Positions 702 through 64,000 of a stretch of DNA of 64,000 nt are shown here, in pieces (position 1 is the first letter of the stretch; each line of letters begins with the position of its first letter). The translations under genes and the position numbers were made by a program. Source of the stretch: Frankia casuarinae (lineage in GTDB: Bacteria > Actinomycetota > Actinomycetes > Frankiales > Frankiaceae); NCBI RefSeq assembly GCF_000013345.1, contig NC_007777.1, positions 2,976,001 through 3,040,000 of the forward strand, written 5' to 3'. Under the pieces are notes generated by a model, which was not told the DNA's origin, did no database searches, and saw nothing but the letters and a program-made list of their open reading frames with translations.

Positions 702-785
702 TGTTCGTTCGAACGCGTTCAAGAAACGTCCGTCGGCCCCCTCGGACGGCGGTTCTTCAACACGCCCGCAGCTTGCAGGGCGCTA

Positions 786-2859: not shown

Positions 2860-3526
2860 ATGGCTGGTTGTTCGAGCAACCTAGATGCTTATAATCATCA
2901 GGGCGCCGAGGTTGCGCAGGCGCGGGAGCTGTTCCTGACCACCGACTCCATCGAGCCGGACAGGGTACGCGACAGCATCCGGGCGTCCTGGTTACGCTCC
3001 CGGCACTGGGAGGTAGCGGCGGAAGGCCCCCGACTCACGTTCGTGGGCGACCTCGACAGCGAAAACCCGGTCAGCCGCGCCGCAGCGCCCATCGTCCGCC
3101 AGCTCGGCGATCAACTTGTAGACCAGCCTATCAGCATCATCCTGACCGATGCCGAGGGAGTCGTCCTGGCCCGGCGCACCGGTGACCGCGCCCTGGAGAA
3201 GCACCTCGACGCGGTCCAGCTCGCACCGGGTTTCAGCTACGCGGAAAGACTGGTGGGAACCAACGGAATCGGTACCGCGCTCGAGGGAAGGTCCCCCGCC
3301 CATGTCTTCGGGCACGAGCACTACGCCTCGAACCTCGAGAATCTAGCCTGCGCCGGAGTGCCGATGCACCATCCAGTCACAAGGAAGATAATTGGCGTCT
3401 TGGACCTGACCTGTTGGCGTCCGGACGCCGGGCCGCTGCTCATGGCCATGGCCCGGGCCGCGGCGGCACAGATTCAGGAATCCCTGCTCGCCAACGAAGA
3501 ACACCGTGACCTTGCCCTGTTACGGG

Positions 3527-5425
3527 GTAAGAGTTCGGTGATGGCGTGGGTGGGCGGGCCGAAGGCCCGGCCGGTGTTGCCGGTCGGGTGGTTTTCGGCT
3601 TGTGGGTGGGGTTAGGGCTCGGGCCCGTCGGGTGGGCCGTCCTGGGGTGGGTCGGTGCTGGGAGGGCTGCCGGTCTGGGTGGTGGTCTGCCAGGTGAGGA
3701 AGGGTTCGAGGGCGGGGCCGGCGGGTGCTTTCCCGCCGGCTGTGGCGCAGGCGTTCAGGTAGCCGGTCAGGAACGCGAGGGGTTCACGGCCGTTACGCTC
3801 CGCGGTGGCGACGATGGTCCAGACCCGGGCGGCGAGGTGCGCGGCCCACTCAGCGTGTGCGCCGTAGTAGTTCTTCCGCCCGACGACCGGGGTCCGTAGC
3901 GCTCTCTCGGCAGCATTGTTGTCAAGATCCAGGTCGGGGAAGTCCTGGTGGCGGGCCAGCCCGTCCCATTCCCGGTCCAGGGTCGCCAGGACCTTCTTCG
4001 CCGCCGGGTGCAGGCTGTGGATCGCCGCCTCCGCGCGCCGCGCCGTGTCGATCGCCCTCAGCGCGGCCTCGAACGCGCCGGCGGCCTCGCGGTAGCCGCC
4101 GGTTGTGGGCTGCTCGGCGGCGAGGGCGCGGTGAGCGAGGTAGAGCATCCCGATCCGGGCGACCCACTGGTCGGCCCAGTACCGCAGTTGGGGGTGGGCG
4201 TCCCCGGCCCGGATGAAGTACCGGCGGATGTGTGCCCAGCACCAGAGCGGGTCGACTCCGTCGACGCGGCCCAGGGACTGGTAGACGGTGTAGAAGTCCG
4301 ACGAGACGACGAGGCGACATCCGTCGGACAGCGCCCCGGCGGCCCGGTCGATCCCGAAGTGCTTCTCGACCGGGGCAGCCGAGCGGGTCGGGTCCATCCG
4401 GAACACCACCGTGTCGGCGGCGACGAACACCCACAGCCACCAGCGGGTCCCGTCCTTGCCCTCGACCCGCTCGAACACCCGCCACGTCGTCTCGTCCGCG
4501 TGGACATGACCGGCGGCGGCGTTACGCGCCACGATCTGCTCATCGAGCCCGCCGAGCAGTCCATGCACGTCCTTCAACGCCCCACACAGAGTGCCCTCGG
4601 CAACACCGAGCCCGGCGGCGGCCAGCGCCCGAGCGATCCGGTGCAACGGCAGGCCCAGGACGTACTTCTCGTAGAGAAGGCGGGCGAGGAACCCCGCGGT
4701 GAACCGGCCCTTGGGAATCGGTTTGGGTGGCACCGGCGCGGTCACTGTCCGCGGCCCCGGACATGTGCAGCACCGCCGATACCGCCGCCGCCGATGCACG
4801 ATCCGGGTGATCACGACCTGCCAGTCGACCTGTTCGCTGTCGTCGGTCCCCAACGGCGTGAACGCCACCCCACACCCGGGGCAGGCACGGTCGACCTCGG
4901 GCACATCATGGATCTCCTCGCGGGTCTGCAGATGCGAGTAGTCCCGCCGGCCATGCCCCCGGCTCCCCGGCCGCTGCCCGCGTTGACGCGCCGGCCGGCC
5001 GGCATCCCCACCGCCCGAATCCTGCCGATCTTCTGGTTTCTCATCCACAGCCGACGACGGGCCGGTCTTCTCCGAGGAACGACCGAACAGCATCCGGGAC
5101 AGCACCGCGACCTGCTCGCTCAACTCCTCGACCCGCAGCTGCAGCTGCCCGACACGGGCCTCGGCTTTCTCCGCACACTCCTCGGCCCGCTCGGCACGCC
5201 CACGCCAGTACGCCACCTCGGTGACATCATCGGTGACAGACAGAACAGACACACCACCCAGGACACATCACCAGCGTCCTCGGTATCAGGAACTACACCC
5301 GACGTATCACGAAGAGCCCACAACCCCCCACCAGCATCCCGCGGACACTCCGCCCGACTCCCGCCACAGCCACGACACCGCCACACGGCGGAACCAGCCC
5401 CTCCACGCCATCGCCGAATACTTAC
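3527..5425 (-). mobile_element. IS66-family insertion sequence, copy 1 (1899 bp)
   Basis: Terminal inverted repeats start GTAAG and match imperfectly (GTAAGAGTTCGG left, GTAAGTATTCGG right, inverted). It is flanked by the 8-bp direct repeat GTTACGGG at 3519-3526 and 5426-5433, the duplication length usual for IS66. It carries one long transposase gene and no separate TnpA/TnpB genes. A second copy at 19919-21817 has the same length; the only difference I saw is one silent base (G/A) in the transposase gene. Confidence 0.93.
3612..5252 (-). CDS. IS66-family transposase (TnpC type), copy 1
   Basis: DDE transposase of 546 aa. The order is an N-terminal leucine-rich coiled coil (residues 10-60), a zinc-binding region (CPGCG near residue 123, CCTCPG near 160), and the IS66 catalytic core with HADETTWRVF, WCWAHIRRYF and LDNNAAERALR motifs. 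The protein is identical to the copy at 20004-21644. It lies inside the disrupted MimR-like gene, opposite in orientation to it. Confidence 0.94.
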   Translation of the reverse strand: MSVLSVTDDVTEVAYWRGRAERAEECAEKAEARVGQLQLRVEELSEQVAVLSRMLFGRSSEKTGPSSAVDEKPEDRQDSGGGDAGRPARQRGQRPGSRGHGRRDYSHLQTREEIHDVPEVDRACPGCGVAFTPLGTDDSEQVDWQVVITRIVHRRRRYRRCCTCPGPRTVTAPVPPKPIPKGRFTAGFLARLLYEKYVLGLPLHRIARALAAAGLGVAEGTLCGALKDVHGLLGGLDEQIVARNAAAGHVHADETTWRVFERVEGKDGTRWWLWVFVAADTVVFRMDPTRSAAPVEKHFGIDRAAGALSDGCRLVVSSDFYTVYQSLGRVDGVDPLWCWAHIRRYFIRAGDAHPQLRYWADQWVARIGMLYLAHRALAAEQPTTGGYREAAGAFEAALRAIDTARRAEAAIHSLHPAAKKVLATLDREWDGLARHQDFPDLDLDNNAAERALRTPVVGRKNYYGAHAEWAAHLAARVWTIVATAERNGREPLAFLTGYLNACATAGGKAPAGPALEPFLTWQTTTQTGSPPSTDPPQDGPPDGPEP

Positions 5426-6678
5426 GTTACGGGAGTATCTCAGGACATGCCAACGGATTTCCGGCGTGGTGCTCGGCCTCAACGACGACGTCGTCATGAT
5501 GAACGAGCACGCGCGCCAACTACTCGACCCCCGCGACCAGTCGGTGCTGATCGGGCGCATCACCGATGTCGTCGCCAGACGCCGTGCCACCACCCTGATG
5601 ATGGAACTGCCCAGCGGAACCTGGGCCCGCGTGCACTGCCGGACAGTGGCAACGGAGAGGGCCACCGACGGGGCGGTGGCCCATGTCCGTTTTGTCGAAG
5701 CGCCGCGCCCGCGGCATGCGGACACCGCTCTGACGCGGCTTCCGCTGCCCGGCATCGTCGGCTCCGGAACTCTATGGACCCGTGCCTGCCGGGAAGTGGA
5801 CGCGGCTGCGCAAGCAGGTGAGTGGGTGATATTACGAGGAGAGCCCGGCGTGGGCAAAACAGCCCTGGCCCGGGCCGTGTGCCAGCGGCATGATCCGTCC
5901 GCGTGGTTCTCCGTTGTCGACGGCCACAACACTACTGTTCGGGAGTGGGGGACCCTTCTCCGCCACGAACTGAGCCGTAGCCGGGGCACGCTGGTGGTAC
6001 GCCACGTCGATCGCATCGACCCCTATCGGCTGCATGTGCTGGCGTCCGCCTGCCAAGCAGCGGAGGCGGGCGGCCGCCGGGATCTGCCGTGGGTAGTCCT
6101 GACGCTCAGCGCCGACGACAAACCCCTCGGCCCCCTGATGCGCTACTTCCCGCGTTGCATCGAAGTGCCCCCGTTGCGGCACCATATCGATGATCTGCAC
6201 CAAATCGTGCCGTTCCTGCTGGTAAAACTTACCCGTGGCGGCCAACTCGCCTGCTCCCCGCAGGCTATGCAAGCACTGTTGCGTACCAGTTGGCCAGGCA
6301 ACATCGAGCAGGTGCGGCAGGTGCTGCGCAAAGTCATCCAGGTTCGCCCCGCAGGCACGATCATGGTCGGTGACCTGCCGCCGGAATGTCACACGGTCAC
6401 CCGCCGGGTTCTCGGAGCCATGGAGGCGATCGAGCGGGACGCAATAGTGCAGAGCCTGCTCAGTGCGGACGGGAACAGGACCCTCGCGGCGCGGGCTCTC
6501 GGCATGTCGCGAGCGACGATCTACCGCAGAATCCGGCAGTACGGCATCGAGATCCCCGCTCCCAGCGTGTAGACGCAATCTTGCGTGGAGCCCACGGGAG
6601 CAGAGTGCGGGGAGCAGAGTGCGGGGAGCAGCAGCCCTACGACAGGCCGCAGTGGCGGTCCCTAACGTGGGAGGCCCA

Positions 6679-8442
6679 TCATGGCTGCGCGGTCGCGACC
6701 CGGTCCCGGCCGGAGCGCTTTGCCTGGTAGAGGGCCACGTCGGCGCGGATGAGCAGGTCGCCAAGCCCGGAATCGTCCGGGTTCAGCATCGCCACCCCCA
6801 CGCTGACGGTGACCGGGAGCGGACCGTCGGCGGTAGCCACCGGGCTGGCCCCGATCGCCTGCCGAAGCCGCTCGGCGAGAACACCCGCCGTCGCAGCCGG
6901 GCAGCCCAGCACGGCCGCGAACTCCTCGCCGCCGATACGGCCGACGATGTCCTGCGGGCCCAGCGTGCCCTGCACGCGCCGAGCGACCTCGGCGAGAACC
7001 GCGTCACCCACAGCATGACCGTGACCGTCGTTGACCTGCTTAAAATGATCAATATCGATCATGAAGGCAGCCAGCGACCGCGCCGCATGCAGATGCCCGC
7101 GGACCAGAGCATCGGCCTGCTCGAAGAAATGACGCCGGTTCGCCAGCCCCGTCAGCGGATCACTGTCCGCAAGCCGCTGCGTCTCCTCGAACAGGTAGGC
7201 GTTCTCACAGGCCGCCGCCGCCTGGCCCAGCACGGCATAAGCCAGACGAGCCTGCCTGGGATTGTAGCCACCAGCAGCCCGCGAGGCGATCAGAACGACG
7301 ACGGTGGGGGCCGGCCGGCACAGCGCCGGCACGGCCAGCCAGCTGCCCACCGGGTAGCGCTGGCCGGGGAGCACCTCCGGCAGCCTCCGGTGCGGCCCGA
7401 TCATCCCACCGCCGTGGAACGCCAGCAGCAGAGGGGAATCCGGAAGCGGGACGATCATCGCCCCGACCGCCCGGGTATCCACCTGGCCGTGGACCGCCAC
7501 GACCCGCAACGTTCCGCACGGTTCCCGGGCCAGCGCCCACGCCGCCTCGCACGGAAGCTGCGCGGCAGCCGCCGTCATGACCCGCCCGAGGATCTCCGGC
7601 GGAGTCACCGCCCTGGTGGTCTCGACGACGACCCGGTGCATCGTCTCGGCCAGTTCCCGCTGCTGGCGCTCGGCCATCAGCAGCCTGCGCAACTCCGCCG
7701 CGTCGGCCTCGCGAAGCGAGATCAGTTCCCGGTCGTGCCCCGGCACGGCGAGAAGCAGGACATCCTGGATCTGGTTGGCGACCATGCCCGCCATGACCGC
7801 CAGCAGCGGCCCGGCATCCCGGCGCGGACAGGTGAGATCGAACAGGCCCAGCGTCTGCCCCGTCACCGGATCACGCAGGGGAACACCGGCGCAGGCGAAC
7901 TCGCCGAGGGACTCCGCGTAGTGCTCCTGACCGAACACGTGCGCCGGCCTGTGCTCCTCAAGAGCGGTACCGATGCCGTTGGTGCCGACAAACCGCTCGG
8001 CATAACTAAATCCGGGCAGCAGCGATACGCGGTCCAGCCGGCGTTCGAATGCGGCGTCGCCGGTGCACCGCATGAGCACCAGACCGTTCGCGTCGGTGAC
8101 GATCGCGCTGACGGCCTGCCTGGCCAGCCGATCGGCGAGCTGGCACAGGACCGGTTCGGCCGCGCGCGCGACAGGTACGTCAAGGTCCGACGCGGCGAGG
8201 AGGGGCTCGGGGCTGTCCGCGGCCACCGCCCACCGCCGCGACCGCATCCACGACTCGCGGATCGGATCCCGCACCCCACCGGACTCGCTGGTCTCAGCCG
8301 AGATCTCAGCCGAGATCTCAGCTGAGATCCCGGCGGTGAGGAACCGCTCGCGCAGCCGCTCGAGCGAGGCTCCTTCCCCACCGTTGAGGCGAAGCCCCGA
8401 GGCCCGTCCGGCTCGCCGAGACGGTCTTGACCGATCCGGCAT
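6679..8442 (-). CDS. GGDEF diguanylate cyclase with a MimR/AcoR-type sensor domain
   Basis: Predicted c-di-GMP synthase, 587 aa. Residues about 50-250 closely resemble the sensor half of the neighbouring MimR-like regulator (RESWMRSRRW, then FSYAERFVGTNGIGTALE), so both probably sense related signals. A second GAF-like region spans about 270-420. A complete GGDEF domain ends the protein, with DPLTGLANRR, DHFKQVND and the active-site GGEEF. The RxxD inhibitory site five residues before GGEEF is not conserved (GPQD), so product inhibition is not expected. A 12-bp DNA repeat encodes ISAE repeats near residue 40. It is convergent with the disrupted regulator. Confidence 0.9.
   Translation of the reverse strand: MPDRSRPSRRAGRASGLRLNGGEGASLERLRERFLTAGISAEISAEISAETSESGGVRDPIRESWMRSRRWAVAADSPEPLLAASDLDVPVARAAEPVLCQLADRLARQAVSAIVTDANGLVLMRCTGDAAFERRLDRVSLLPGFSYAERFVGTNGIGTALEEHRPAHVFGQEHYAESLGEFACAGVPLRDPVTGQTLGLFDLTCPRRDAGPLLAVMAGMVANQIQDVLLLAVPGHDRELISLREADAAELRRLLMAERQQRELAETMHRVVVETTRAVTPPEILGRVMTAAAAQLPCEAAWALAREPCGTLRVVAVHGQVDTRAVGAMIVPLPDSPLLLAFHGGGMIGPHRRLPEVLPGQRYPVGSWLAVPALCRPAPTVVVLIASRAAGGYNPRQARLAYAVLGQAAAACENAYLFEETQRLADSDPLTGLANRRHFFEQADALVRGHLHAARSLAAFMIDIDHFKQVNDGHGHAVGDAVLAEVARRVQGTLGPQDIVGRIGGEEFAAVLGCPAATAGVLAERLRQAIGASPVATADGPLPVTVSVGVAMLNPDDSGLGDLLIRADVALYQAKRSGRDRVATAQP
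8293..8328. repeat. 12-bp tandem repeat (3 copies) inside the GGDEF gene
   Basis: Three units of CTCAGCCGAGAT (the third with one change) encode successive Ile-Ser-Ala-Glu tetrapeptides on the minus strand. The period is a multiple of three, so copy-number change would keep the frame. Confidence 0.85.
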
Positions 8443-8640
8443 GACGCACCTTCCCGCACCTTTAACCGTGTGACCTGGGGCAAGTATATGCCGCTTGGAC
8501 CTGAGCTCAGAATCATAGTCCGCTTAGCCCGGCCTGCCAGGGGAGACAAAAATCGCGGAGAAAGTGATATCCAGTATTTTTCTTCCGAAAATCGGTCTTT
8601 CGGGCGGTTGGTAGGTTGACGCCTCCTGCCATCGGCGCCG

Positions 8641-8862
8641 TCAGCCGGTGAGCAGACCTCGCAGGAACAGCCGCACCCACCGTCGGGGGGCCGCCGGTGA
8701 GATCCCGTCACCGGGCATCAGGCTGAGCACCGGCACGAAGTCGTCCGCGGTGACGTCGGAGTGGAGGACGCCCTGACGATGCGCGATCTTCACTAGGTGA
8801 CTCAACGCGACCTTCGTACCGCTGATGACGCCCGAAGCGCGGAGGGCCCCTCGGAGTTGCAC
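8641..8862 (-). pseudogene. TetR-type regulator, C-terminal remnant
   Basis: The last about 73 residues resemble the C-terminal ligand domain of TetR regulators (GVLHSDVTADDFVPVL, then RRWVRLFLRGLL). No helix-turn-helix can be found upstream on this strand, so the gene is truncated. Family assignment rests on pattern resemblance only. Confidence 0.5.
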
Positions 8863-9280
8863 GCCTGCGCGTACTTCGCCACCAGCCGCGGCGTTTTCTT
8901 CTCGCCGGAGCCGCCCACCATGGTCGACTGCAGAATCGTCGGCGGCCCCAAACCTAGGCGACCTCGACGGTCCGCATGCCGATCACACTGGATGCACGTC
9001 CTGACCGTCATCGGCCGCTCGCGACCTCGGTAAGTGTCAAGCGGCCTTTGGGCAGTTGCTTCAGGGCAGCCGCCCTCGGCCCGACCGGACCGGTCGCCAA
9101 GATTCGATCTTCGTGTGCGCCGTGGATGGGCTCATTGTGGGTGCGGATGTCCCGACACGGAGAGGCACCCACAGGCATGCTCCGGCACGGAAAACGCCGT
9201 GAGCTGGGAGAAGGCGGCATCACCAGGAACCTTGCGGCATGAGCCGGCACGCGCCCGTGCGACTTGCAATCGAGCGGCTA
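8863..9280. other. Decayed non-coding stretch
   Basis: No gene can be supported. A minus-strand piece near 8870-8960 vaguely resembles the tail of a zinc alcohol dehydrogenase (MVGGSGEKKTPRLVAKYA), but it lacks any diagnostic motif. Confidence 0.4.
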
Positions 9281-9307
9281 CTGATTCGAGTCCCCTCACC
9301 AGCTCCA
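9281..9307 (+). other. tRNA 3'-end-like sequence (T-arm and acceptor end)
   Basis: ATTCGAGTCCCC followed by TCACCAGCTCCA looks like a tRNA T-loop and acceptor 3' strand. No matching 5' half folds at normal spacing, so this is not a complete tRNA. It could be an old integration (att) scar. Confidence 0.3.
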
Positions 9308-9429
9308 ATGACAGGGCTTTCAGGATTGTACCGCGTTACCGGTCGCCATTCTATTAGGATATAAAAATTCGTCGGCGTGTCGGCCGCCAGTTGACCGACA
9401 GGCGAGAAAGTGTCGCTTTTTGTCGGAGG

Positions 9430-9555
9430 ATGCAGGTGCGCCAAGTCGAAGTGAAGTACTCGGTGACCGACCCGGCTACGGTCACGGCAGCGCTTCGAGC
9501 GGCCGGTGTGGACCTCACCGATCCGGTGTTTCAGGATGATCAGGCATTCGCGCCG
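9430..9555 (+). pseudogene. Class IV adenylate cyclase/CYTH domain, N-terminal remnant
   Basis: About 42 residues (VEVKYSVTD, then FQDDQAFAP) match the N-terminal strand pair of CYTH-domain proteins, where the ExK motif binds triphosphate. Beyond 9555 the frame enters DNA that reads as an ISAs1 transposase on the other strand, so the gene was cut there. Confidence 0.5.
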
Positions 9556-9560
9556 GTGGC

Positions 9561-9893
9561 TCGCACCGTGTGCAGGGTGTCGAACCACACGAACGCCCCG
9601 GTCAGGGCCAGGGGTGCCAGCAGCGCACGGAACTCGGCGTTCTCGTTGGTCTTCGCGTCGATCTCCCGCTGGCCGACCATCGCCCCGGCGCCGGGGGAAA
9701 CGACCCCGAGCAGGTGAACCTGGCTGCCATCGGCACGTGTCGCCCCCCGGCCGGTCTCCCGTCCACCGCGTACGCCCGCACCGGGAACAGCCGCACCACT
9801 GTTCACGTCCACCGCCCCGGGCGGGGACGCCGCGGTACCAGCGACCACATCCGCGAGATCAGCCGGCATGTCGGCGAGCGGCGGGTCAAGCAA
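9561..9893 (-). pseudogene. ISAs1-family transposase fragment
   Basis: The segment reading VHLLGVVSPGAGAMVGQREIDAKTNE then LALTGAFVWFDTLHT (in separate stretches) matches the central catalytic region of ISAs1/H-repeat transposases. Both ends are missing. It directly abuts the truncated CYTH gene. Confidence 0.6.
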
Positions 9894-9947
9894 CGCGACC
9901 GCAAGCGCCTGATCGTCGGCCCTGTCGAGGAACCGGCGGATCGTCGA

Positions 9948-10262
9948 CTAATCCGGCAGCAGATGCCCGCTCCACGAATTCCACGGCAGCCGTAACCGGA
10001 CCCGCTCCGCCCACGTCGTGGCCGCCAGCCATTCCGTCACCACCACGCTCGCCGGCACGTCGCCGTCCGATGCAGCTCCACCGTACGGCGCACCATCCGA
10101 CGGCGCACCATCTGAGACACCGTCGGCTGCCGCCCGCCACCGGACGCGGCGTGGGTGAGGCGGAAGCGGTAGCTGGCGGCGGTCTGGCCGGTACCGAAAC
10201 GGTTCGTAACGCAATGCGATGACCTCGGTGTCGCAGCCGCCGCAGCGCAGCACCTCGGCCAT
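9948..10262 (-). CDS. Small hypothetical protein
   Basis: A 104-aa frame with ATG at 10262 and GGAGGCG about 15 nt upstream. It has a CGGC pair at the N-terminus and a duplicated Ser-Asp-Gly-Ala segment in the middle. I do not recognise a family. It lies among remnants and may itself be one. Confidence 0.3.
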   Translation of the reverse strand: MAEVLRCGGCDTEVIALRYEPFRYRPDRRQLPLPPHPRRVRWRAAADGVSDGAPSDGAPYGGAASDGDVPASVVVTEWLAATTWAERVRLRLPWNSWSGHLLPD

Positions 10263-10435
10263 CTACACGGGAGTTATCGCCTCCGGATCGTCGACGATTA
10301 GCCGGGCGCCCCGCCACCGTTGCGTACAAGGTGGCCGGGGCCGTCTGGTCCGTCACGCGTCACTCTTCTCGGAGGCGGACGGGCGCGGCGCGAGCGGGAG
10401 CGAGTGTGGCGAGGGCCGCGGTGGGCACGTCCGGT

Positions 10436-10473
10436 GTGGGTGGGGTGAGCCCCCCGAGACTCACCCCACCCAC
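10436..10473. terminator. Perfect 14-bp hairpin
   Basis: Bases 10436-10449 and 10460-10473 are exact inverted repeats with a 10-nt loop. No T-run follows. The surrounding DNA has no supported gene, so it may be a relic terminator or a small repeat element. Confidence 0.5.
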
Positions 10474-10824
10474 GCCGAAGGCCAGTCATCGCTGGCATGC
10501 GGCGGTCACTGGCCGAGCCGTCGCCACCAGGCACTGATGGACGGCGGTCGGCTGCGCCGAGCCGCGACCTTGGCTGAGGCTGCGGCTCAGCCGTCGTCGT
10601 CATCGCCGTTGATGGTGGTTGGGTTCACGGCCGCTCCCTTCTGCCGGGATCGGGACTCGCGGTCACGGCGAACATCCGCCGGCCGGCCCGTCACCCGGAG
10701 GGCGACCGTCAGCGCACGGGCGCACGCTGAGCACGAAGCGAGAACGAAAGCCCGCTCCCAGCACCGCACCGCCAGGGGCTACAGACATCACCGCCGACAC
10801 GAGCCATGGACGTCACCGACCGAC
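10474..10824. other. Gap without a supported gene
   Basis: I see no gene with a credible start, ribosome site and family match. On the minus strand a very short frame ends in a run of four Asp codons (about 10587-10630), which is not enough to call. Confidence 0.35.
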
Positions 10825-10920
10825 GGCGTCACGAACGGCAGGCGTCACGAACGGCAGGCGTCACGAACGGCAGGCGTCACGAACGGCAGGCGTCACGAAC
10901 GGCAGGCGTCACCAGCAGCC
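10825..10920. repeat. 16-bp tandem repeat, five perfect copies plus one degenerate
   Basis: GGCGTCACGAACGGCA repeats exactly at 10825, 10841, 10857, 10873 and 10889, then decays at 10905. There are no spacers, so it is a minisatellite, not CRISPR. A 16-bp period changes reading frame each unit, which argues against a coding role. Confidence 0.92.
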
Positions 10921-11094
10921 GCGGAGGTCACCGACGGCGGGCGTCACTGGTCCCAGTCAGTCTCGGAAAGAACGAGTGGGCGCCGGTTCCAGGAGTGCCG
11001 CGAACGCATGTTCGTGGGATCAAAGTCGAGCAGGACGCCTGGCCGACCCCGGCGGCACGGACCGCACCCGCCCGGCGGCGGGGACTGACCCTCG

Positions 11095-53278: not shown

Positions 53279-54320
53279 TCAGGGACGCCAGACCACTTCC
53301 ACCCGTTCGGGGTCGAAGCGGTTCGTTGGGCCGTCAGCCGCCTTCAGTACGACGGCCTCGATGACGGTACTAATGATCTCCCAGCGCTGCTCCAGCTCCA
53401 AAGAGGGCCAGCCCTCGGCCAGGTTCGTGACCTTGGGGCCGGTGTGGGCGCGTAGCCACTCGGCCTGCTCCGCCCTCAGGTGCAGGATGGATTGCTCCTG
53501 CTCGCGCACACGGGGGAAGACGTACGGGCCGGGCAGCTCGTCCCGGTCATAGGCACCCATGAGTTTCGCGATCTTGGCCTCCGCCTTGGCCAACTCGCCC
53601 GCCCTTGGCCACCTGCCCACCTCGGCCTCGACGTCGCGGCCTGCCAGGTAGGCCAGGACCAGCTCGGAGACAAGGTCATCAACATGGCGGCCTGTGACGC
53701 CGACCTTGCCGCACCCGCCCGCGGTGACGGCCTTGCAGGCGTAGTGGTGCTTGCCCCACCGCCGGTCGTAGCCGCCCATCAGGTGGCGGCCGCGGAACCC
53801 GCAGCAGATGATCCCGGACAGCAGATACTTCCGTCCGCCGATGTGGACGTGCTTGGAAACCCGGCTGGGGTCGCGGAGCTTCGCCACCACCGCCTCCCAG
53901 ACATCCAGGTCCAGGATGGGCTGCTGCTGGCCCTTGACCGGCTGGCCGTCCGCGTCCACCACGTAGCGCTTCTCCAGCGGGACGGAGGTCGGGCCGTACA
54001 CCCGGTAGCCGACGATGCGCGGGGACAGGTAGATGTTGCGCAGGACGGGTTTTTGCCACTTCTTGCCCATGGCGCTGGCGATGCCAAGATCGTTCCACTG
54101 GCGACAGATGGTGTGGAGGCCGACGCCGGCCAAGATCTGATCCGCCCCCGCGACCAGGAGCGCCGCCGCCGGTTCGTCCTTGGTTTCCTTGTCGGCCAGC
54201 CAGCCGAAGGCACGGTTGCCCCCGACGGTAATGCCGGCCTGGGCCATGGCGAGGTGCTTGCGCCGAACCCGCTTGGAGGTGTCCAGGGACTGCCGCGCCT
54301 TGAGGGTGACGACGATCCGG
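53279..54320 (-). pseudogene. Large serine recombinase 3, truncated copy of recombinase 1
   Basis: Its visible coding part matches the last about 347 residues of recombinase 1, with the same C-to-R change in the zinc ribbon. The match ends abruptly at 54320, inside the catalytic domain (RIVVTLKARQ), where an IS66-type transposase remnant begins. No catalytic serine, so inactive. An apparent longer frame to 54625 is chimeric. Confidence 0.88.
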
Positions 54321-55706
54321 CAGGCGGGGACGGGGAGGCCGGGGGCCGGCAGGTCCGGCCGGCCTCGGAGCGGGTCCGTTCGAAGGACAGGAAGCCGGGC
54401 GGGCAGCCGGGTCACCCGGGTGCCGGGCTGCCCCGGGGACCCGGCCCCGGACCGCCGGTTACGGGCGGACGAGCCGACCGGGTGCTCGTCGTGCGAGGCG
54501 GGCCTGGCCGGTGGGCAGGTGCTGGCGGACATGTGGACGCAGGTACGCGACGTGCCCGAGCCGCGGGTCGAGACGACCGAGTGGGCGCTGCCGCGCAGGC
54601 GGTGTGGCTGCTGCGGGAAGATCACGGCGGCGAGGGTGCCGGACGTGCCGTGGGCGACGGCGGGCTCGGTGTGCTACGGGCCGCTGATCGGCGGCGCGGT
54701 GGTGCTGCTGGGCAACGAGGGCAACGTCCCGCTCGCGCGGACCGCGCTGGTCCTCAACGGGATGTACGGCACGGCGGTCTCGACCGGCTTCGTCGCGCGG
54801 ACCCTGCAACGCGCCGCCGAGGCGCTCGCGGCCCGTGGCTACGACGAGAAGATGAAGGCGGCGCTGCGCGCCGAGCCGGTGCTGTGCGGTGACGAGTCCC
54901 TGGTCAACGTCCTGCGCAGGGACCTCGACGAGGCCACCGGCAGGCCGACCGAGGGCGCCCCGCACCTGCTGGCGCTGCGGACCCCGTGGCCCGGGCTGGT
55001 CTGATACGCGGCGATCCCCTCCCGCTCGTCGGAGGCGATCGACGCCACCGGGGTCCTCGACGGCTACACCGGCTACCTCACCCGCGACGACTACGCCGGC
55101 TGGCACCAGTACGACACCCAGGTCGCCGGCGTGCAGCTCCGTTGCCAGCACCTCATCCGAGCTCTGCGGGCGGTGCTGATGCTCGCGCCGAACATCCAGA
55201 AGTGGGCCGGCCAGCTCATCGAGCTGTTCCGCGAGGCGAACGGCCTGGTCGTCGCCGCCCGAGCTGCCGGGTGCACCCGCCTCGACCAGGACGTGATCGA
55301 CGGGCTGCGGGCCCGGTTCGACCGGGACGTCGAGGTCGGCCGGCTGGCGAACATGTCCCGGCCCTGGAAGGACGGCAAGAACCATCCCGGCCTGGTCCTG
55401 GCCCGCCGGCTCGCCGCGAAGGCCGACCAGGTCTGGCTCTTCCTCACCGACTTCAAGATCCCTTGGACGAACAACGCCGCCGAGCAGTCGATCAGGCTTC
55501 CCAAACGGCACCAGGCCGTCTCGGGCTACTGGCACACCCCGACGACCCTCGCCGGGTACCTGCGCGTGCGCTCCTACCTGGTCTCCACCCGCGACCATGG
55601 CATCCGCCCGATCGACGCGATCAGGATGCTGCTCGCCAGCCGGCCCTGGCTACCCACCCCCCGGGCCGCTCTCGCCGAACCGGACGGCCTCGCGGTCGCT
55701 ACCTAA
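54321..55706 (+). pseudogene. IS66-family transposase remnant (different from the 1.9-kb IS66)
   Basis: It contains the zinc region (RRRCGCCGKITAARVP), GPLIGGAVVLLGNEGNVPL, LCGDESLVNV, IPSRSSEAIDATGVL and the C-terminal PWTNNAAEQSIRLPKRHQ. A TGA at 55002-55004 interrupts the frame, and the N-terminus is missing at the junction with recombinase 3. It has divergent sequence from the copies at 3612 and 20004. Confidence 0.85.
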
Positions 55707-56286: not shown

Positions 56287-58350
56287 TCAGGTGGTCGGGA
56301 GCTGCTCGCGGCGGGCGGCCAGCGCATCGATCTCGTCCTGGCGGGCGAACGGCCCGGGCAAGGAGGAGATCCACCGGCGGGCGGAGGAGAGCAGGCGGTC
56401 GACCGCGGCGAGATCGGCGGCCGTCCCGACGCCGTCGGGACTCACCTGCAGCTCAACAGCGAGCAGGAGTGCCGGCACGGCCTGCAGTGCGAGTCGGCAT
56501 GCCGACTCGGTGGCCTCGTCTAGCATCGCGGCCGTACCGGGATCCGCGAGAGCGCGGTTAATCCAGAGGTGGCCGAGGGCCGCCCAGTTGCGGGCCTGTG
56601 CCGAGTGGCCGGCAGCCCGCGCCAGCCGCGCGAGGCCCGTCGTCGCTGCGGTAGCCATCTGGAGCGAGACGCGTAGCGGTTCGAAGACGGCCGTGCGGGC
56701 GACGTATCTTGCTCGGGCGGGCAGCACCACGTCCCGAAACAAGTCCACCGCCTGGGTGAGATCGCCGGACGAGTACGGGTGGCTGGCGAGGTAGGTCGCG
56801 TAGTTGTGCAAGTGGTGAGCCAGCAGGTCGGGGAGCGGACCGGTGGTCAGTACCGCCGGGTCGATTTCCACCATGCGTAGCCAGACCAGCCACCCGCGGC
56901 GCACATGGTCGTCAAGTATCCCGGCCGGTGGGGTACCGTCCGCAGGCGGCCCGCAGCTGGCCTCGGCCAGCCGGCGCAGGGTGTCCAGCTGCCGGTTGGC
57001 GGCCGAGAGAATCTCCGCGGCGGCGCCGCGGTCCAGGCTGCCCCGCTCGAACAGGTCGATGCAGTACTGGCTGGACGCCATCAGCGCCTCGACCAGCACC
57101 CGCTTGTCCCGCTCCGCGTCGTACCGGACGAGGTCGAGCCGGAGCACGTCGGCCCGGCAGCCGGCGACGGCCCGGACCGGATCGTCCGCCGGCAGGATAC
57201 CGGCCAGCCAGCCGTGTGCCTGGCCCAGCCAGGTGAAGGCGTCGAGGCGTAGGCGCTCCCGGGCCTGTGCGTCGGTGAGTACCTGGCGCACGGCGCCGAA
57301 CAGCGCGATGGCCGCGGTGCGCCGGGTGGCCAAGGGCCGCTGGGCGAGAGCCGCCGCATCGGGAAGGGCGGGCAGTCGCGCGTCGACCGGCCCGCCGTCG
57401 ACTGGCGGCAGCGCCCGCAGCGCCTGGGCGACGAACTGGTCAATGATCGAGTCCGGGGTGAGTAGCGCCTCCAGCGCCAGCTGCCCGGGGCCCCGGGCGG
57501 AGATCCACAGGTGACTCGTGTCGCGCAGGGTTCCCACGTCGAGCAGGCGATGCAGGAGCTGCCCAGCGACCAGCTCGTGCGCGGCTTGCTGGCCGACGGG
57601 CCCCTCCGCCGCCGGCAGTGCCAGCCCCGGCAGGGTGGTGTCGACGAGGTCGAGGTCGCGTGGCAGGACCGGCGAGGCCGTCGTCCGCGGTGCGCTGATC
57701 TCACATCTGGTTAGCGATTCAGCTGCTGCGGAGGGGGCCAGCGGCACCTCCCAGGCGGTGGTCAACGGACGTTGCACCGCACGCGCGCGGATGCCCGCGG
57801 CGACCAGCGCCGGCTGGGAACGAAAAACCTCGACGACCACCGCGGCCCAGGCTGCAAGCCGCAGGTCGGGTATCAGCCTGCTGCCGTCCTGGTAGGCCAG
57901 CACGGGCAGGACCTCGGTGAGCGCCGCCCGGAGCGGATCGAGCAGGCGGTTGACCGCCACTAGGACGACCGCAGCCTTCGTATCGGGGCCGAATCGGTTG
58001 AGCGTGGCGTTGGCGATCTCATTCGGCAAGGTCGCCCCACTCGCGGTAGCGGCCATCCGATCGAGGATCACCCATCCACGGGTGCCGAGCTCGGCGGCGC
58101 CCGCGAGCTGCGCGGCCTGCGCACGGGTCGGCAGGGGGGCGCCGCGGGCGATCTCCGACAGCGTGACCCGGGTGAAGTCGGTGACCCAGGTGATCCGCCC
58201 GAGTGGGTTGGGCTCCAGAGTGTCCGGCCAGGGCACTCCGAACAGCGGCGCCACCTTCCGGGCCAGCCGGGCGGCTACCAGTTCAGCCCGCGTCTCCGGC
58301 ACCGGCGGCACCACCGCCGGCAACAGGGTCACGACCGTCTCCTCCTTCAT
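56287..58350 (-). CDS. Large uncharacterised protein beside the CHAT gene
   Basis: 687 aa from ATG 58350 (GGAG about 10 nt upstream); a GTG 20 codons further up is possible. Almost all helical, Ala/Leu-rich. No catalytic motif is evident. Residues 40-120 (VAPLFGVPWPDTLEPNPLG, ITWVTDFTRVTLSEIARG) look like a folded unit; the rest suggests TPR-like helical repeats. It diverges from the gene at 58479 across an AT-rich promoter region. Possibly a partner or sensor of the CHAT system, judged from position only. Confidence 0.6.
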   Translation of the reverse strand: MKEETVVTLLPAVVPPVPETRAELVAARLARKVAPLFGVPWPDTLEPNPLGRITWVTDFTRVTLSEIARGAPLPTRAQAAQLAGAAELGTRGWVILDRMAATASGATLPNEIANATLNRFGPDTKAAVVLVAVNRLLDPLRAALTEVLPVLAYQDGSRLIPDLRLAAWAAVVVEVFRSQPALVAAGIRARAVQRPLTTAWEVPLAPSAAAESLTRCEISAPRTTASPVLPRDLDLVDTTLPGLALPAAEGPVGQQAAHELVAGQLLHRLLDVGTLRDTSHLWISARGPGQLALEALLTPDSIIDQFVAQALRALPPVDGGPVDARLPALPDAAALAQRPLATRRTAAIALFGAVRQVLTDAQARERLRLDAFTWLGQAHGWLAGILPADDPVRAVAGCRADVLRLDLVRYDAERDKRVLVEALMASSQYCIDLFERGSLDRGAAAEILSAANRQLDTLRRLAEASCGPPADGTPPAGILDDHVRRGWLVWLRMVEIDPAVLTTGPLPDLLAHHLHNYATYLASHPYSSGDLTQAVDLFRDVVLPARARYVARTAVFEPLRVSLQMATAATTGLARLARAAGHSAQARNWAALGHLWINRALADPGTAAMLDEATESACRLALQAVPALLLAVELQVSPDGVGTAADLAAVDRLLSSARRWISSLPGPFARQDEIDALAARREQLPTT

Positions 58351-58410
58351 CCCCGCTCCAACGCCCGCCCCCGCAGCATCCCGATCGTAGTCGCCGAACC
58401 CTGCCTCCAC

Positions 58411-58478
58411 TTGGCAGATTTTTTTCGCGAGTCACTAAAATCATAGACAGTTTTACCATTTTCCGCTAGAAAGCCGGC
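58411..58478. promoter_or_regulatory. AT-rich divergent promoter region of the CHAT locus
   Basis: A short AT-rich patch (TTTTTTTCGCGAGTCACTAAAA cut short to its core TTTTTTT and ACTAAAATCATAGAC) in otherwise GC-rich DNA, between divergent genes. No exact -10/-35 assigned. Confidence 0.4.
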
Positions 58479-59453
58479 ATGCTCACGGACTTTGCTGGTG
58501 GCGGCTCGACGACACTGGACGATCGAATGTCACCCCAAGCCGTCATTCAGACACCTGTAGTCACAATCTCCATGGAGATCGTCTGCACGCTTCTCGGCGA
58601 GACCGCCGGGTTCCGGCGCAAGCTGCACCGGATGACCCGGTCTGGGGTGTGCGACGTGGCGCCGGTCCAGGTCGGCGAGCAGGCCCTCGTCCGTGGCAGC
58701 TGCGTGTGTCAGGACCTGGTCGTCGACGTGCTTGTCGACATCAGCCGCTATCTGGCGCAACGACCCGCGCAACGGCCCGCCGCCGCCGCCCGCGCCCACT
58801 GGCGCACCAGGGCGAAGTTCGAGTGGATCCGGCGCCACCGCCTGGCTCAGGGTGCTCAGGCCCGTGTCGACCGGATCCGAGTCGGCGAGCTGGCCCGGGC
58901 GTTACCGGACGAGTACCACCGCGCCGTGCTGGAGTATCTGGTCGAGGAGGCGGGCCGGCCGGCGCCGCTGGAAGGCCAGTCGGCGCTTGAGTACCGGCTG
59001 GCCGAGCAGGCGGCCGCGGAGTTCGGGGGCTCGCCTGAGGAGCACCGCGACCGCGTCGCGGCGGCGTTGGGTGGCATCGAGCGGCACTGTCGCAGCGGGC
59101 GGCGCGTGCGCGACGGCGACGGCGAGCTGGTGACCTGGTGGGAGCGCTACATCGACCGCCCACTCGGCCGCCGGCCCCGGCAGGGCGACGTGCCGCTGGG
59201 GACGGCCGCAGCCGACAGCGCCCTCGCCCGACCGGCCGAGTCCGGCGCCGAGGATCTCGACGAGATCGTCCTGGCCGCGCTGCGCGACCGCCCGGCCGGA
59301 GCCGACCCGGCCGCCTGGCTGATCGACCGCGTGCTCCGGCTGGCGGCTGACGGTATGATCCCCGCGAGCGCGGTGGAGGCGTTCGGGACCGACCCGCAGC
59401 GCCTGGCCGCCGCGCTCGCGGCGCTGGCGGACCTCGACCGCGCCGAGCAGCGG
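58479..59453 (+). CDS. Uncharacterised protein, possibly sigma-like; 3' end uncertain
   Basis: About 325 residues have protein character: VVTISMEIVCTLLGETAGFR, then a charged middle (WRTRAKFEWIRRHRLAQ) and helical C-terminus (LDEIVLAALRDRPAGAD). No stop occurs in this frame before 60659, so it would run antisense through the whole next gene. A TAG in another frame at 59455-59457 overlaps the convergent stop as CTAG, which suggests that a frameshift removed the original stop. The start may be ATG 58479 or 58572. Confidence 0.5.
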
Positions 59454-60488
59454 CTAGGCGCGGTCGAGGGTGCCGTCCGCGCCGAAGAACCGGCGCAGCT
59501 CGCTCTCCCCGGGCCGCCCGCCCGACGCCAGCGCGGCGGTCAGCAGCAGCCGGTTCCCGCCGGTGAAGAACGGCTCGGCGAGCGTCCCGTCACCGCCGAA
59601 CTCAGCAGACTGCCAGCCGTGCGCGCGCATCACCGTCAGCCCCAGCCGCGCCATCCGCAGCGCGTGCTGCGCGACGGTGACCCCGTCCGGCGGCGGGGTC
59701 CGCGCGGCGAACAGCACGTGATGCGTCGTGACGGCCAGGACCGGATCATCCAGCACCGCCCGGCCGTGAAGGTGGTGGCGCAGCAGCCGGGCCAGCATCA
59801 TGCCGGCCCGCATCATCGTGGCGTAGTCGTCGTGGGCGTCGTAGAGCTGCACCCCGTGCTCCCAGGCGGCCACGTCCGCCTCAATGCCGGCCCGGTCCAG
59901 CGGCCACTCGGCGCGGACTACACTGACCTGCGACCAGTCCGGCGAGCCGGCGGGAGTACCGCCCGGTCCCGCACCCGGGAACGGTCCGTCGTGCCCACTG
60001 CCGGGCAGCCAGTCGACCTCGGTCCCGCCCCGCTCAGCCCATCGCTCCGTGTAGAAGCCGATGAGCCGCCCGAACGGCACCCGCGAGGCCCGCAGGAAGT
60101 CGATGCTGGCATCGAGAAGCTCCACGTAGGTGGGAATGGCCCGGCGGGTGGCCCCGTCGGCGAAGTTCCGCAGGAGGGACTCGGCGCCGACCAGCGCCCA
60201 GCCCCCCGCAGGGCCCACCTCGCGCGCGAGCGCCGCGGCGAAACCGGCCGCGTCCGCGGTTGCCGACGCCAGGAACGGCCGTTGCAGGTCGCCCCAGACA
60301 TCGGGCTCGTCGCTGGCGGCCGGCGCGAACTCGTACCGCCCGAGCCGAGCCATCAGGCCGGCGACGTCGGCGGGCAGGGCGCCGGCAACGGGCTGCGCCG
60401 GCCCGCCGGTGCCCGCGGCCGGTCGGCCGGTGCCAGGAGGTGCCGCGCCGCCGCCGTCGTCCCGCCTACGCCTGTTCCACCTGGCCAT
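59454..60488 (-). CDS. Uncharacterised protein of the CHAT locus
   Basis: 344 aa from ATG 60488. It has a Gly/Pro-rich N-terminal 45 residues and then a conserved-looking helical domain (LMARLGRYEFAPAASDEPDV, WALVGAESLLRNFADGATR, AHDDYATMMRAGMMLARLLR). No known family recognised. A longer in-frame upstream extension is Arg/Pro-rich and unlikely. It is divergent from the CHAT gene. Confidence 0.65.
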   Translation of the reverse strand: MARWNRRRRDDGGGAAPPGTGRPAAGTGGPAQPVAGALPADVAGLMARLGRYEFAPAASDEPDVWGDLQRPFLASATADAAGFAAALAREVGPAGGWALVGAESLLRNFADGATRRAIPTYVELLDASIDFLRASRVPFGRLIGFYTERWAERGGTEVDWLPGSGHDGPFPGAGPGGTPAGSPDWSQVSVVRAEWPLDRAGIEADVAAWEHGVQLYDAHDDYATMMRAGMMLARLLRHHLHGRAVLDDPVLAVTTHHVLFAARTPPPDGVTVAQHALRMARLGLTVMRAHGWQSAEFGGDGTLAEPFFTGGNRLLLTAALASGGRPGESELRRFFGADGTLDRA

Positions 60489-60646
60489 GATCGTCTCCCG
60501 ACTGTGCGGCGATGGGCTTCGTCGGGGTGGCCTGACGGACCGGCACACGGCACACGGCACATATACGCTGCGCCCGCAGCGACGGGTGGCCGCAGGGCGG
60601 CTCGTCGCCAGCACTGGACAGCTTGGTCGGCATCGGGGGATTCGCT

Positions 60647-63600
60647 GTGGACGGCCTGAATCTGGAGATCGACGCGCTGGTCGGCCCGGCGCTGGATCTA
60701 CTGGCCACCGCGGAGCGCGACGGGGACCCGGTTGCCGCCCGGGCCGCCGTCGGCCTGCTGGCTCAGGCATATGACCTCGCGCCCGGCCACTCCGGCGCGC
60801 CGGGCCTGGCGATGCTCATCGCCGAGTGGGAGGGCGAGCTCGCCCAGGCGGATCTGGGCAGCTGGGACAGTGTGGTGCTGTGGTGGCGCCGGGGCTGGCC
60901 GGCGCCCCGGCCCGGCGGCCGCCCGTCCCTGAGCATTGCCGAACTCGATGCCATGGAAGGCGCGCTGCACGGCGAGCGCTACGTCAACGGTCGCGATCCC
61001 GCCGAGCGGGACGCCGCCATGCGCCTGCTCGCCCCGCTGGCCGACGCGGGCAAGCTCGGTCCGCAGGACCTACTCGGCTACGCAGCGCTCCTGATCGTCT
61101 GGTACGAGCAGGACGCGGTGCCGGCCGCCCGCGACACCGCGCTCGACCTGCTGGCGCCCATGGTCACCGCGGGCACCGCCGACCCGGGCATCGTGGCCGA
61201 CTACGCAGAGCTCGTCTTCGACCGCGCCGAACAGAGCGGTACCACCCGGGATTGGGCCCAGGCCGTCCACTGGCTGCGCGAATCCCTCCGCATCGGCGGC
61301 GCCCAAAACGTCGCCGACACCTGGGACAGCCTCGGCCACGCCTACTGGGCGTGGAGCCGGCTCGATGACGACGACGCCCTGTTCGACGAGGCGGTCGACT
61401 GTTTCACCGCGGCGGTACGGCACGGTCAGCCCGCCGAGCTCCTCGCGCCGGCAGCGCTGGTGTTCGTCGCGGACCGGCTGCGCGAGCAGCGGCGCAGCGC
61501 GGGCGGCGTGGACGACGCGCTGCTGGCGGACATCCGCGCCGTGCTGGCACTCGCGGACCAGATCGTCGACCGGCCGGAACTGGATACCGAGATCCGCGCG
61601 ACGGTGGCCATGGAGATTCTCACGCTGCAGTACCTCATCGTCGACGGGAACGAGATCACCCGCCGGCTGGTGCAGGAGGGCCTGGAGGCGTTCCCGCTGG
61701 CCGGGGACAGGTTTGACCGCCTGCTCGGCTACGCCGACGCGCACCCCGACCCGCCGCAGGGCTGGTCGAGCAGCCGGGCCGCGATGCGGGCGATGACCAG
61801 TCTGCTGCGCGCCATGTTCGGCACCGGGCCCCGGCCCGGCGCGGACTTCGGCCTGCAGCATGCCGCCGAGGCCATGCGCACGGCCGAGCACTCGGACGAC
61901 GCCGCCGCGTTGTTCTCCCTCATCTCCGCTGTCGCCGGTGGCTTCTCCGGCGACCTGGGCCGGGTGAAGGCCGCCGAGCAGCTGGTCGGGACCTCCGCGG
62001 ACCCGAGCGCCACGGCGATCTCCCTGTTCGCCCGACTGGGTCAGATGCTGCTGGTCGGCATGCCGGCCGACGGCGCCCGCACCGCCGTCGAGCTGCTGTC
62101 CGTCTTGGCCCGGTCGCTGGCACAGGTTCTGGGCGGTGGCCTTCGGGGCAGGCTGCAGCCACCTGCCGCCGACACGGGCAAGCCCGGTCACCTCATCGAG
62201 GTCAGCCAGTACCTCGACGTCAGCCGGCGCCTCGACGTCGGTCAGCTCCGGGAGATCGCCGACGTCTTCGCCGCGTTCCCGGGCTGCGACGCCCTTGTCG
62301 CGCAGGCAGCGGCCGCGGAAGTGATCGCCGGCATCATCGCGGCGACTTCAGCCGGCGCGCCCGCGGATCGCCTCGCCGAGTTGCGCGCCCGCCTCGCGGA
62401 CGCCGACCAGGCCTGGGCCGACAGCAGTGCGCAGCTACCGCCACCCCCGCGGGCCATGGGCACGCAGCTGTTCGCCCACGGCTGGCAGCTGTTCGCGGGA
62501 GTCACCGGGGACCGGTCCGCCGCCCGGCTCGCCGTGGCACGCTCCCAGGCGGTCCTGGACTGGTTCGACGGTCCTGACCACCCGATGTGGCCGATGGTCG
62601 TCATGACCGCCGCCCGCGCCCGGCGACTGCGCGGCGAGCCCGGCGACCTGCCCGGAGGTCGCCGCCTGGCGCTGCGAGCCCTGCGCGGGCACGCCTGGCT
62701 CGTGCTGCTGCAGTCGGGCACCCGAGACGCGCTGGAGGTCGCCCGCGGGGCGGCGGCGGATGCCCGGGTGGTGCTGGAGTGGTGTGTCGAGGACCTGCGG
62801 GGCGGCGACGAGCAGGCCCGCGACGACCTGGTGACCGCCGTGGAGGCCGGCCGCGGCCTCGTCCTGCACGCGGCGGTGACCACCCGGTCGGCCGCGGAGC
62901 AGCTGCGTGAGCTTGGGCATGCCGACCTCGCGCAGGCCTGGGCAGCCGCAGGCCTCGAACCGGCCGAGGCCGACCCGGCTGCGCAAGGCCCCGGCTGGTT
63001 CGCCGACGGGGCCGAACGGTCCGCGCTGCGCCGGGCTGTGCTGGCGGCGCTGAGCGAGTCCGCCGCCGGACCCGACAGCCTGCTGCTTCCACCCAGCATC
63101 GGCGAGATCCGCGCAGCGGTGGGCACGCACGGCTCCGACGCACTCGTCTATCTGGTCCCCGGCGTCGACCGGCCCGGGCATATCATCATCATCCCGGCTG
63201 ACGGGACCAGACCGGTGGAACATGTCGAGCACCCGGGGCTCGTCAGCGCCGACGACTCCCCCATGGGCCGGTACCTGGCGGCGTACGCGGGTTGGCGCCA
63301 GGCTGCAGGCGGTGAGGGTGCCAGGCAGGGTGTGGCCGAGCCAGCGGCCGCGTTCGCGGCGTCGCGCGCCGCGCTGGCGGCGTGGCGCGCTGCGCTGGCG
63401 GAGCTCACCGAGTGGGCGGGTCGCATCGCCGAGGTGCTGCTGGACCGGGTCTCGGCTGTCGCGGCCGACACCACCTGGCCGACCTTCGTAATCACCTCGG
63501 TGGGGGTGCTCGGCCTAGTGCCCTGGCACGCCGCCGTGCTGGACGTCGAGGCGCCCGGTCATCAAACCGGCGGCGGCACCCGGCTCGCCCAGCGGGCGAC

Positions 63601-64000
63601 GGTGTCCTACATCCCCTCGGCCCGGCTGTTGTGCCGGACGGTCGCGATGCCCGCCGCTGCCGACGGCGACGTGCTGATCGTCGGCAATCCGGTGGGCGCG
63701 GCGTCCCACCCTGCCGGTGACGCCGCCTGGCATCTACCATCGGCCTTCTACCCCCGCGCCATGCTGCTGGGCGGGGGGCCGTCCCGGTCGGGCCGCGAAC
63801 CGGCCACGGTGGCGGGCGCGGGGGCGTCCGGGGACGGGACGCCGGCCGAGGTGCTCGCCTGGCTGCGCCGGCCAGGCGCCCGCCGCCTAGTGCTCCACCT
63901 GGCGTGCCACGGCTTCGCCGTCCCCGCGGACCCGGCGGCGTCGCATCTGGAGCTCGCCGACGGACGGCCGCTGACCGCCCGCGAGCTGCTGGCCGAGCAG
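60647..64000 (+). CDS. CHAT-domain (caspase-like) protein, 3' end beyond window
   Basis: 1118 codons from GTG 60647 (GGGGGA upstream), open to the window end. Residues 1-900 are helical, TPR-like, without an enzymatic motif. The CHAT protease domain starts at about 950 (DALVYLVPGVDRPG). It includes VLIVGNPVG and the catalytic His1088 in LVLHLACHGFAVP. The catalytic Cys, expected 40-60 residues later, lies outside. CHAT proteases act in conflict and cell-death systems, activated through the repeat region. The flanking unknown genes may encode regulators or targets. Confidence 0.85.
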   Translation, partial: MDGLNLEIDALVGPALDLLATAERDGDPVAARAAVGLLAQAYDLAPGHSGAPGLAMLIAEWEGELAQADLGSWDSVVLWWRRGWPAPRPGGRPSLSIAELDAMEGALHGERYVNGRDPAERDAAMRLLAPLADAGKLGPQDLLGYAALLIVWYEQDAVPAARDTALDLLAPMVTAGTADPGIVADYAELVFDRAEQSGTTRDWAQAVHWLRESLRIGGAQNVADTWDSLGHAYWAWSRLDDDDALFDEAVDCFTAAVRHGQPAELLAPAALVFVADRLREQRRSAGGVDDALLADIRAVLALADQIVDRPELDTEIRATVAMEILTLQYLIVDGNEITRRLVQEGLEAFPLAGDRFDRLLGYADAHPDPPQGWSSSRAAMRAMTSLLRAMFGTGPRPGADFGLQHAAEAMRTAEHSDDAAALFSLISAVAGGFSGDLGRVKAAEQLVGTSADPSATAISLFARLGQMLLVGMPADGARTAVELLSVLARSLAQVLGGGLRGRLQPPAADTGKPGHLIEVSQYLDVSRRLDVGQLREIADVFAAFPGCDALVAQAAAAEVIAGIIAATSAGAPADRLAELRARLADADQAWADSSAQLPPPPRAMGTQLFAHGWQLFAGVTGDRSAARLAVARSQAVLDWFDGPDHPMWPMVVMTAARARRLRGEPGDLPGGRRLALRALRGHAWLVLLQSGTRDALEVARGAAADARVVLEWCVEDLRGGDEQARDDLVTAVEAGRGLVLHAAVTTRSAAEQLRELGHADLAQAWAAAGLEPAEADPAAQGPGWFADGAERSALRRAVLAALSESAAGPDSLLLPPSIGEIRAAVGTHGSDALVYLVPGVDRPGHIIIIPADGTRPVEHVEHPGLVSADDSPMGRYLAAYAGWRQAAGGEGARQGVAEPAAAFAASRAALAAWRAALAELTEWAGRIAEVLLDRVSAVAADTTWPTFVITSVGVLGLVPWHAAVLDVEAPGHQTGGGTRLAQRATVSYIPSARLLCRTVAMPAAADGDVLIVGNPVGAASHPAGDAAWHLPSAFYPRAMLLGGGPSRSGREPATVAGAGASGDGTPAEVLAWLRRPGARRLVLHLACHGFAVPADPAASHLELADGRPLTARELLAEQ

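Follow-up and report, generated by a model that had tools for sequence, protein, structure and literature searches.

A recurrent, unannotated multi-gene system around a CHAT protease in Frankia casuarinae and other actinobacteria, with a probable distant relative of ECF sigma factors among its partners

Introduction

In bacterial gasdermin systems, the gene for a CHAT-type or caspase-like protease lies beside other genes, and CHAT-gasdermin systems use CHAT/caspase-like proteases in a suicide role. For Craspase (type III-E CASP), the relevant portions of PMC10028731 describe that the CHAT protease Csx29 cuts Csx30 and so relieves the inhibition of the ECF sigma factor CASP-sigma. Genes for ECF sigma factors are also reported in some neighbourhoods of EACC2-caspases, as stated in an excerpt of Kaur et al. 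2021 (PMC8195603), and cassettes with GAP1-N2, tubulin, HSP70, and kinase genes are described in passages of Kaur et al. 2020 (PMC7159879), in which CHAT is not mentioned.

In this study, we analysed a CHAT protease locus of Frankia casuarinae located at the end of a stretch of 64,000 bases, in the following called the window (bases 2,976,001–3,040,000 of the single-contig genome of 5,433,628 bases), and extended the reading 9 kb beyond it. Positions beyond the window are given for stretch L006, whose first 10,000 bases are the last of the window (L006 position = window position − 54000). As in Craspase, the CHAT protein of this locus has His and Cys in corresponding positions after a long N-terminal part, and an ECF-sigma-like gene was found among its partners, detected by VIA and profile-profile comparison and not by HMMER. 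In contrast to Craspase, no gene of gRAMP size was found in the 19 kb around the locus (for Cas7-11/gRAMP, no frame in L006 was longer than the CHAT gene among frames of at least 120 codons passing the GC filter), partners A, B, E, and F had no NCBIfam match, and far more genes are present. With the EACC2-caspase/GAP1-N2 systems, as far as the excerpts of Kaur et al. 2021 and 2020 describe them, the locus shares a multi-gene organization, an occurrence in multicellular bacteria, and a caspase-fold peptidase. It differs from them in that Pfam recognised none of the partners A, B, E, and F and that GAP1-N2 (PF20013) gave no match in this genome, while it was present in 4 of 8 genomes searched. 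With the gasdermin systems, it shares a protease gene beside other genes, but no gasdermin model of Pfam or NCBIfam matched A–F, and, regarding the MoxR-vWA ternary systems (MoxR AAA, vWA, and a third component), Pfam detected neither a MoxR AAA nor a vWA domain in the six proteins.

A search of open-access full text resulted in no description of this gene set, which does not prove that none has been published. The CHAT domain was mentioned along with an ECF sigma factor only in PMC10028731, no paper joined CHAT domain, protease, and Frankia, and in the part of PMC10907252 concerned the CHAT domain is named once, in a figure legend. With no partner named by the libraries either, it seems reasonable to speak of an undescribed caspase-like system, as a preliminary description of this DNA had suggested.

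Results and Discussion

Gene organization of the locus

The locus revealed the gene order A(−) B(+) C(−) CHAT(+) E(−) F(−), with true frames told apart by codon-position GC. Gene A (56287–58350, minus strand, 687 aa), for which this signal was accompanied by 44–63% identity to nine homologues, starts at about 58350 and not at 58410. It is separated by an intergenic region (58351–58571) from the divergent start of gene B (58572–59453, approximate; plus strand, about 294 aa), which was likewise recognised by codon-position GC and by 42–53% identity to seven homologues; this divergent arrangement is retained in other loci. Gene C (59454–60488, minus strand, about 344 aa; codon-position GC and one homologue) is accessory. 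The CHAT protease gene (plus strand, 1,241 aa) extends from 60647, most likely starting with the GTG there as in two relatives, to the window end at 64000 and 372 bases past it (to L006 10372), and is followed beyond the window by gene E (L006 10396–12201, minus strand, 601 aa) and gene F (L006 12305–13270, minus strand, about 321 aa).

Thus, the two divergent pairs of the preliminary description, A/B and C/CHAT, were found as proposed, but the set is larger than claimed, with an F-E pair downstream of CHAT. Its three large companions were borne out in part: A and C are coding, as indicated by codon-position GC and homologues, but the 726-aa protein at 58479–60659 on the plus strand had to be given up, since no more than about 58572–59453, or about 294 codons, is supported by coding signal and homology. 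The 3' end of B is uncertain and 59453 approximate, since its frame stays open over gene C for about 400 further codons (antisense, from 59454), where the coding signal of C dominates; homology of B stops at 59399, about where C begins. The ORFs at 53279–55706, directly upstream of A, presumably encode a site-specific recombinase-like protein and an IS66-like transposase, the transposase-like frame being broken by a stop. The location at the "edge of the integration hotspot" is fair if read as the edge of an insertion-rich region, as these recombinase- and transposase-like ORFs adjoin A. A search for gene A in plasmid or phage records resulted in no hits.

The CHAT protease

The CHAT protein displayed a TPR-like N-terminus and a CHAT domain at the C-terminus, which passed the Pfam cut-off for PF12770 (4.2e-32) and made it the only protein of the set with a convincing family match. 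As had been noted from the window, it runs off the window end; read beyond it, the protein is complete. Both catalytic residues are present in full length, namely H1088 (codon at 63908–63910) and the Cys that had been out of sight, C1132, encoded 40 bases beyond the end of the window. The His (in HLACHG) and the Cys (in FLAACST) are conserved in its two nearest relatives, and in a PDB search they were aligned to Csx29 at its motifs CHG and GAC. The NCBIfam csx29 model itself scored 46 bits against a cut-off of 300. PADLOC revealed a weak match of the CHAT region to BovA (1.4e-4 over 55 residues) and, beyond such weak BovA matches, no system at the locus. The surroundings of the other CHAT gene of this genome (L103, G000:C1:185253-186116), read for about 8 kb on each side, contain no A, B, E, or F.

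Partners A, E, and F

The claim that the companions lack recognisable domains agrees with our searches, in which none of A, B, C, E, and F received a name from Pfam, NCBIfam, or PADLOC; one Pfam match to A lay far under the cut-off. Profile searches of the PDB, run for A, B, E, F, a second B-like protein of related loci (B2, see below), and B+B2 combined, retrieved neither a sigma factor nor another convincing relative. A is composed of a conserved N-terminal region and a C-terminal TPR-like helical solenoid (about residues 330–687). According to its AF2 model (pTM 0.80, mean pLDDT 76.5), A is predicted to be a TPR-like scaffold; VIA returned TPR/solenoid rows with a best Z of 12.8, a value which for helical repeats is not specific. 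E and F were compared at the sequence level, and E displayed a conserved CP-R-W motif near its C-terminus.

Partner B and its similarity to sigma factors

B carries a C...CxC beta-hairpin. Its AF2 model reached a pLDDT of 79.7 and a pTM of 0.45, and Foldseek gave no match to it at E ≤ 0.001. In VIA, sigma chains, recognised by entry title and chain range, made up 8 of the first 11 rows (Z 4.9–5.5, a level of about 5 that may reflect a common helical arrangement), the top two rows being a poxvirus transcription protein (Z 7.0 and 6.3). Region 2 of SigB, SigH, and SigA was placed on residues 1–94 and region 4 of SigH on residues 100–179, in the correct order and with 25–28% identity. For profile-profile comparison with hhalign, eight ECF-like proteins of this genome were picked by eye among PF08281 matches, and column shuffles and reversed profiles served as controls (in each set, at most one shuffle value may duplicate the run before it). 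B scored 25.7 (reversed 17.4; shuffles up to 18.1), B2 34.1 (reversed 12.5; shuffles up to 17.9), and B+B2 31.5 (reversed 14.2; shuffles up to 18.5), compared to 158 for two halves of the true ECF set against each other. All three alignments were in the sigma2 register and above the controls for sigma2 only; the sigma4 resemblance of B comes from the structure rows only. Trimmed to its first 185 residues, the B alignment scored 22.4, with 50 shuffles reaching up to 14.3; beside it, A scored 18.4, E 17.6, the lipoprotein 16.3, LuxR 13.1, and F 9.9. B and B2 are homologous (E 2.6e-10), and HMMER searches of Pfam (8 B and 9 B2 members), NCBIfam, and PDB assigned neither to a sigma family. Altogether, these comparisons provide moderate evidence that B is probably a far-diverged relative of ECF sigma factors.

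No promoter motif common to the A/B and F/CHAT intergenic regions was found, and autoregulation by B is therefore not supported. Short paired motifs, considered as a shared sigma-type promoter, were commoner than in resampled regions, but were confined to one region type of related loci; they were taken to reflect orthology and not a sigma signature.

Recurrence of the gene set

A homolog of A was found in 4 of 146 relatives, this genome included, in 4 of 393 genomes of the class, and, among 390 genomes from the family to which Crossiella sp. S99.2 belongs, in 26, while a scan of 84,980 species with two short peptide patterns, which is an undercount, yielded ten loci. We compared 31 A loci: the present one, the ten of the scan, which include Frankia sp. 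QA3 (L018), Pseudofrankia asymbiotica (L016/L017/L020), Frankia MAG HOG45C (L019), and L023–L029, and twenty from the Crossiella family, where five of the 26 genomes were already in the comparison and one locus at a contig end was left out. Six-frame searches near A, with Pseudofrankia entered from a separate reading of its stretches, revealed CHAT in 26, B in 25, and both E and F in 16 of the 31 loci. The companions are hence linked to CHAT genes elsewhere as well, which the preliminary description had left to be checked. The five loci without CHAT are L019 (a 7-kb contig), L068 (type III-B cas genes), and the distant A homologs L029, L082, and L083; B is absent from the Pseudofrankia stretches read and from five others. 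With 167 CHAT matches in about 238 Mb (26 genomes), the chance of a CHAT in a random 20 kb is about 1.4% (0.7% in this genome, with 2 CHAT in 5.43 Mb), so that the counts above show the partners to be no random set. Among the pairs listed, B runs 8 bases into the start of CHAT (the first CHAT of the third architecture, see below) in 6 of 11 same-strand B-CHAT pairs, and the frames of F and E have 4 bases in common in 9 of 15; from these overlapping frames, the products of B and CHAT, and of F and E, are probably made together. The four partners A, B, E, and F and the CHAT protease form a recurrent, unannotated multi-gene system of actinobacteria.

Architectures in related loci

In regard to their organization, the loci displayed three architectures. 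The first, with A, B, E, F, and one or two long CHATs, was found in Frankia, Pseudonocardia sp. 73-21, L066, L067, and L070–L072; in L070 and L071, A, B, E, and F are accompanied by two CHAT genes and one for a Peptidase_C14 caspase. In the second, A, B, E, and F are followed by a lipoprotein-like gene, CHAT, and vWA, after which come a tubulin-like gene and, two genes further, a GTPase-like gene. It was identified in Saccharopolyspora, Crossiella, Actinokineospora, L064, L065, and L069, as far as these were read, with the families checked in L024 and L114 and genes of matching size present in L115–L117. After the CHAT-vWA operon of Saccharopolyspora spinosa (L114), a 1,040-aa tubulin-like protein (5899–9021, minus strand; Tubulin_2, 5.6e-52) is encoded. 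The lipoprotein-CHAT-vWA operon had also been considered as a replacement for CHAT, which was rejected, as its middle gene is itself a CHAT by Pfam.

The third architecture (L073–L081) consists of A, B, a CHAT without both catalytic residues, an operon, B2, and a CHAT with the catalytic residues, B2 and the latter lying about 12 kb on from the first B-CHAT. In G615 (L073, L105), the sole genome checked, the operon comprises genes for a Ser/Thr kinase, an OmpA lipoprotein, a ClpB-type AAA protein, an FHA protein, and a radical-SAM-type protein. Altogether, the dyad is intact in 19 of 28 CHATs of the compared loci, a count in which one Pseudofrankia frame was replaced by its full reading and which leaves out a CHAT of L065 truncated where that stretch ends, fragments with broken frames in L026, and a weak 431-aa match of L027. 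All nine CHATs without it belong to loci lacking E and F, namely those of this third architecture, where the first CHAT has lost both residues in 9/9 cases and the second, following the B-like gene, retains both in 9/9.

Two loci stand apart. In L068 (G616:C6:560600-580500; positions 730–10955), the A homolog stands in divergent orientation next to type III-B cas genes (Cas10/Cmr2, Cmr3, RAMPs), and neither CHAT nor B was found in the stretch read. Pseudofrankia asymbiotica (L016/L017, contig of 66,081 bases) harbors A, E, F, and two CHAT genes on one stretch, together with genes for an FtsK-like ATPase, DO-GTPase2, GAP1-N2/M/C, HSP70, GrpE, FNIII-like, and vWA-TerF proteins. GAP1/DO-GTPase/HSP70 as a core of the system was rejected, as GAP1-N2 is absent here and from three other carriers of eight searched, which makes it an optional neighbour.

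Possible function

We favour, at slightly under even probability, a CRISPR-free CHAT protease switch with a sigma-like output, comparable to Craspase/CASP-sigma. A, the predicted TPR-like scaffold, and E and F would hold or sense a trigger and keep CHAT and the sigma-like B in an inactive complex; on the trigger, CHAT would make a specific cut in one partner or in itself, by which B would be freed or inactivated and transcription altered. In the third architecture, the first CHAT would have turned into a non-catalytic pseudo-CHAT, and cleavage would fall to the second CHAT, which lies next to a B-like partner of its own. The fuller version, in which B is a highly diverged ECF sigma factor held by TPRs and coupled to CHAT, and one lineage has been doubled into a non-catalytic pair that senses and a catalytic pair that cuts, as in a caspase with a pseudo-caspase regulator, is rather doubtful. 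If the switch reading is right, the logic of Craspase, a CHAT protease controlling a sigma factor, would occur outside CRISPR, as part of multi-gene systems in filamentous actinobacteria. It would place four to five so far unannotated protein families in a context, and natural pairs of pseudo-protease and active protease would offer a testable system for the inhibition and targets of bacterial caspase relatives.

The preliminary description had suggested a conflict system, a label that we take as unproven, as there is no PADLOC system and no known toxic effector domain, and the sigma-like B favours regulated transcription at least equally. A defence role is unproven, the points in its favour being the neighbours only: caspase genes, cas genes, and a GAP1-N2 cluster in single or few loci. 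Suicide by abortive infection, in which CHAT executes or activates a pore-forming or toxic partner (F or the lipoprotein/vWA cassette) and B merely regulates the locus, is possible but appears unlikely to us. Caspase-like proteases are used in this way in Kaur-type systems, as described in parts of PMC7159879; L070 and L071 contain a second CHAT as well as a caspase of the Peptidase_C14 family, type III-B cas genes lie next to the A homolog of L068, and the Pseudofrankia locus has as its neighbour a GAP1-N2/DO-GTPase/HSP70 cluster of a kind described as conflict systems. However, Pfam, NCBIfam, and PADLOC detected no toxin, pore-former, or nuclease domain in A–F, no PADLOC system was found, and CHAT is accompanied by large, conserved proteins and not by variable ones.

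We regard as less probable still a signalling module with a housekeeping or developmental role in filamentous actinobacteria, which would monitor envelope or cytoskeleton and take no part in conflict. The secreted vWA, tubulin-like, and GTPase-like proteins that follow in one branch, and the genes for an OmpA-domain lipoprotein, Ser/Thr kinase, FHA, and ClpB-type AAA in another, would fit such a role, but the gene cassettes are variable and the distribution is very patchy (4/146 relatives including this genome, 26/390 in the Crossiella family).

That the genes are chance neighbours in an insertion-rich region, with no joint function, is highly improbable: recombinase- and transposase-like ORFs do lie directly upstream, but other genera carry this set too, again with reading frames that overlap, which contradicts this reading for A, B, E, F, and CHAT and leaves it possible for C. 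The only homolog of C was found in Frankia sp. QA3 (50% identity over 117 aa). A gene for a secreted protein (L006 14923–15576; L018 6355–6954 in Frankia sp. QA3) flanks both loci with 59% identity, and by this sequence comparison the two genomes share the same chromosomal neighbourhood, with the modules between rearranged.
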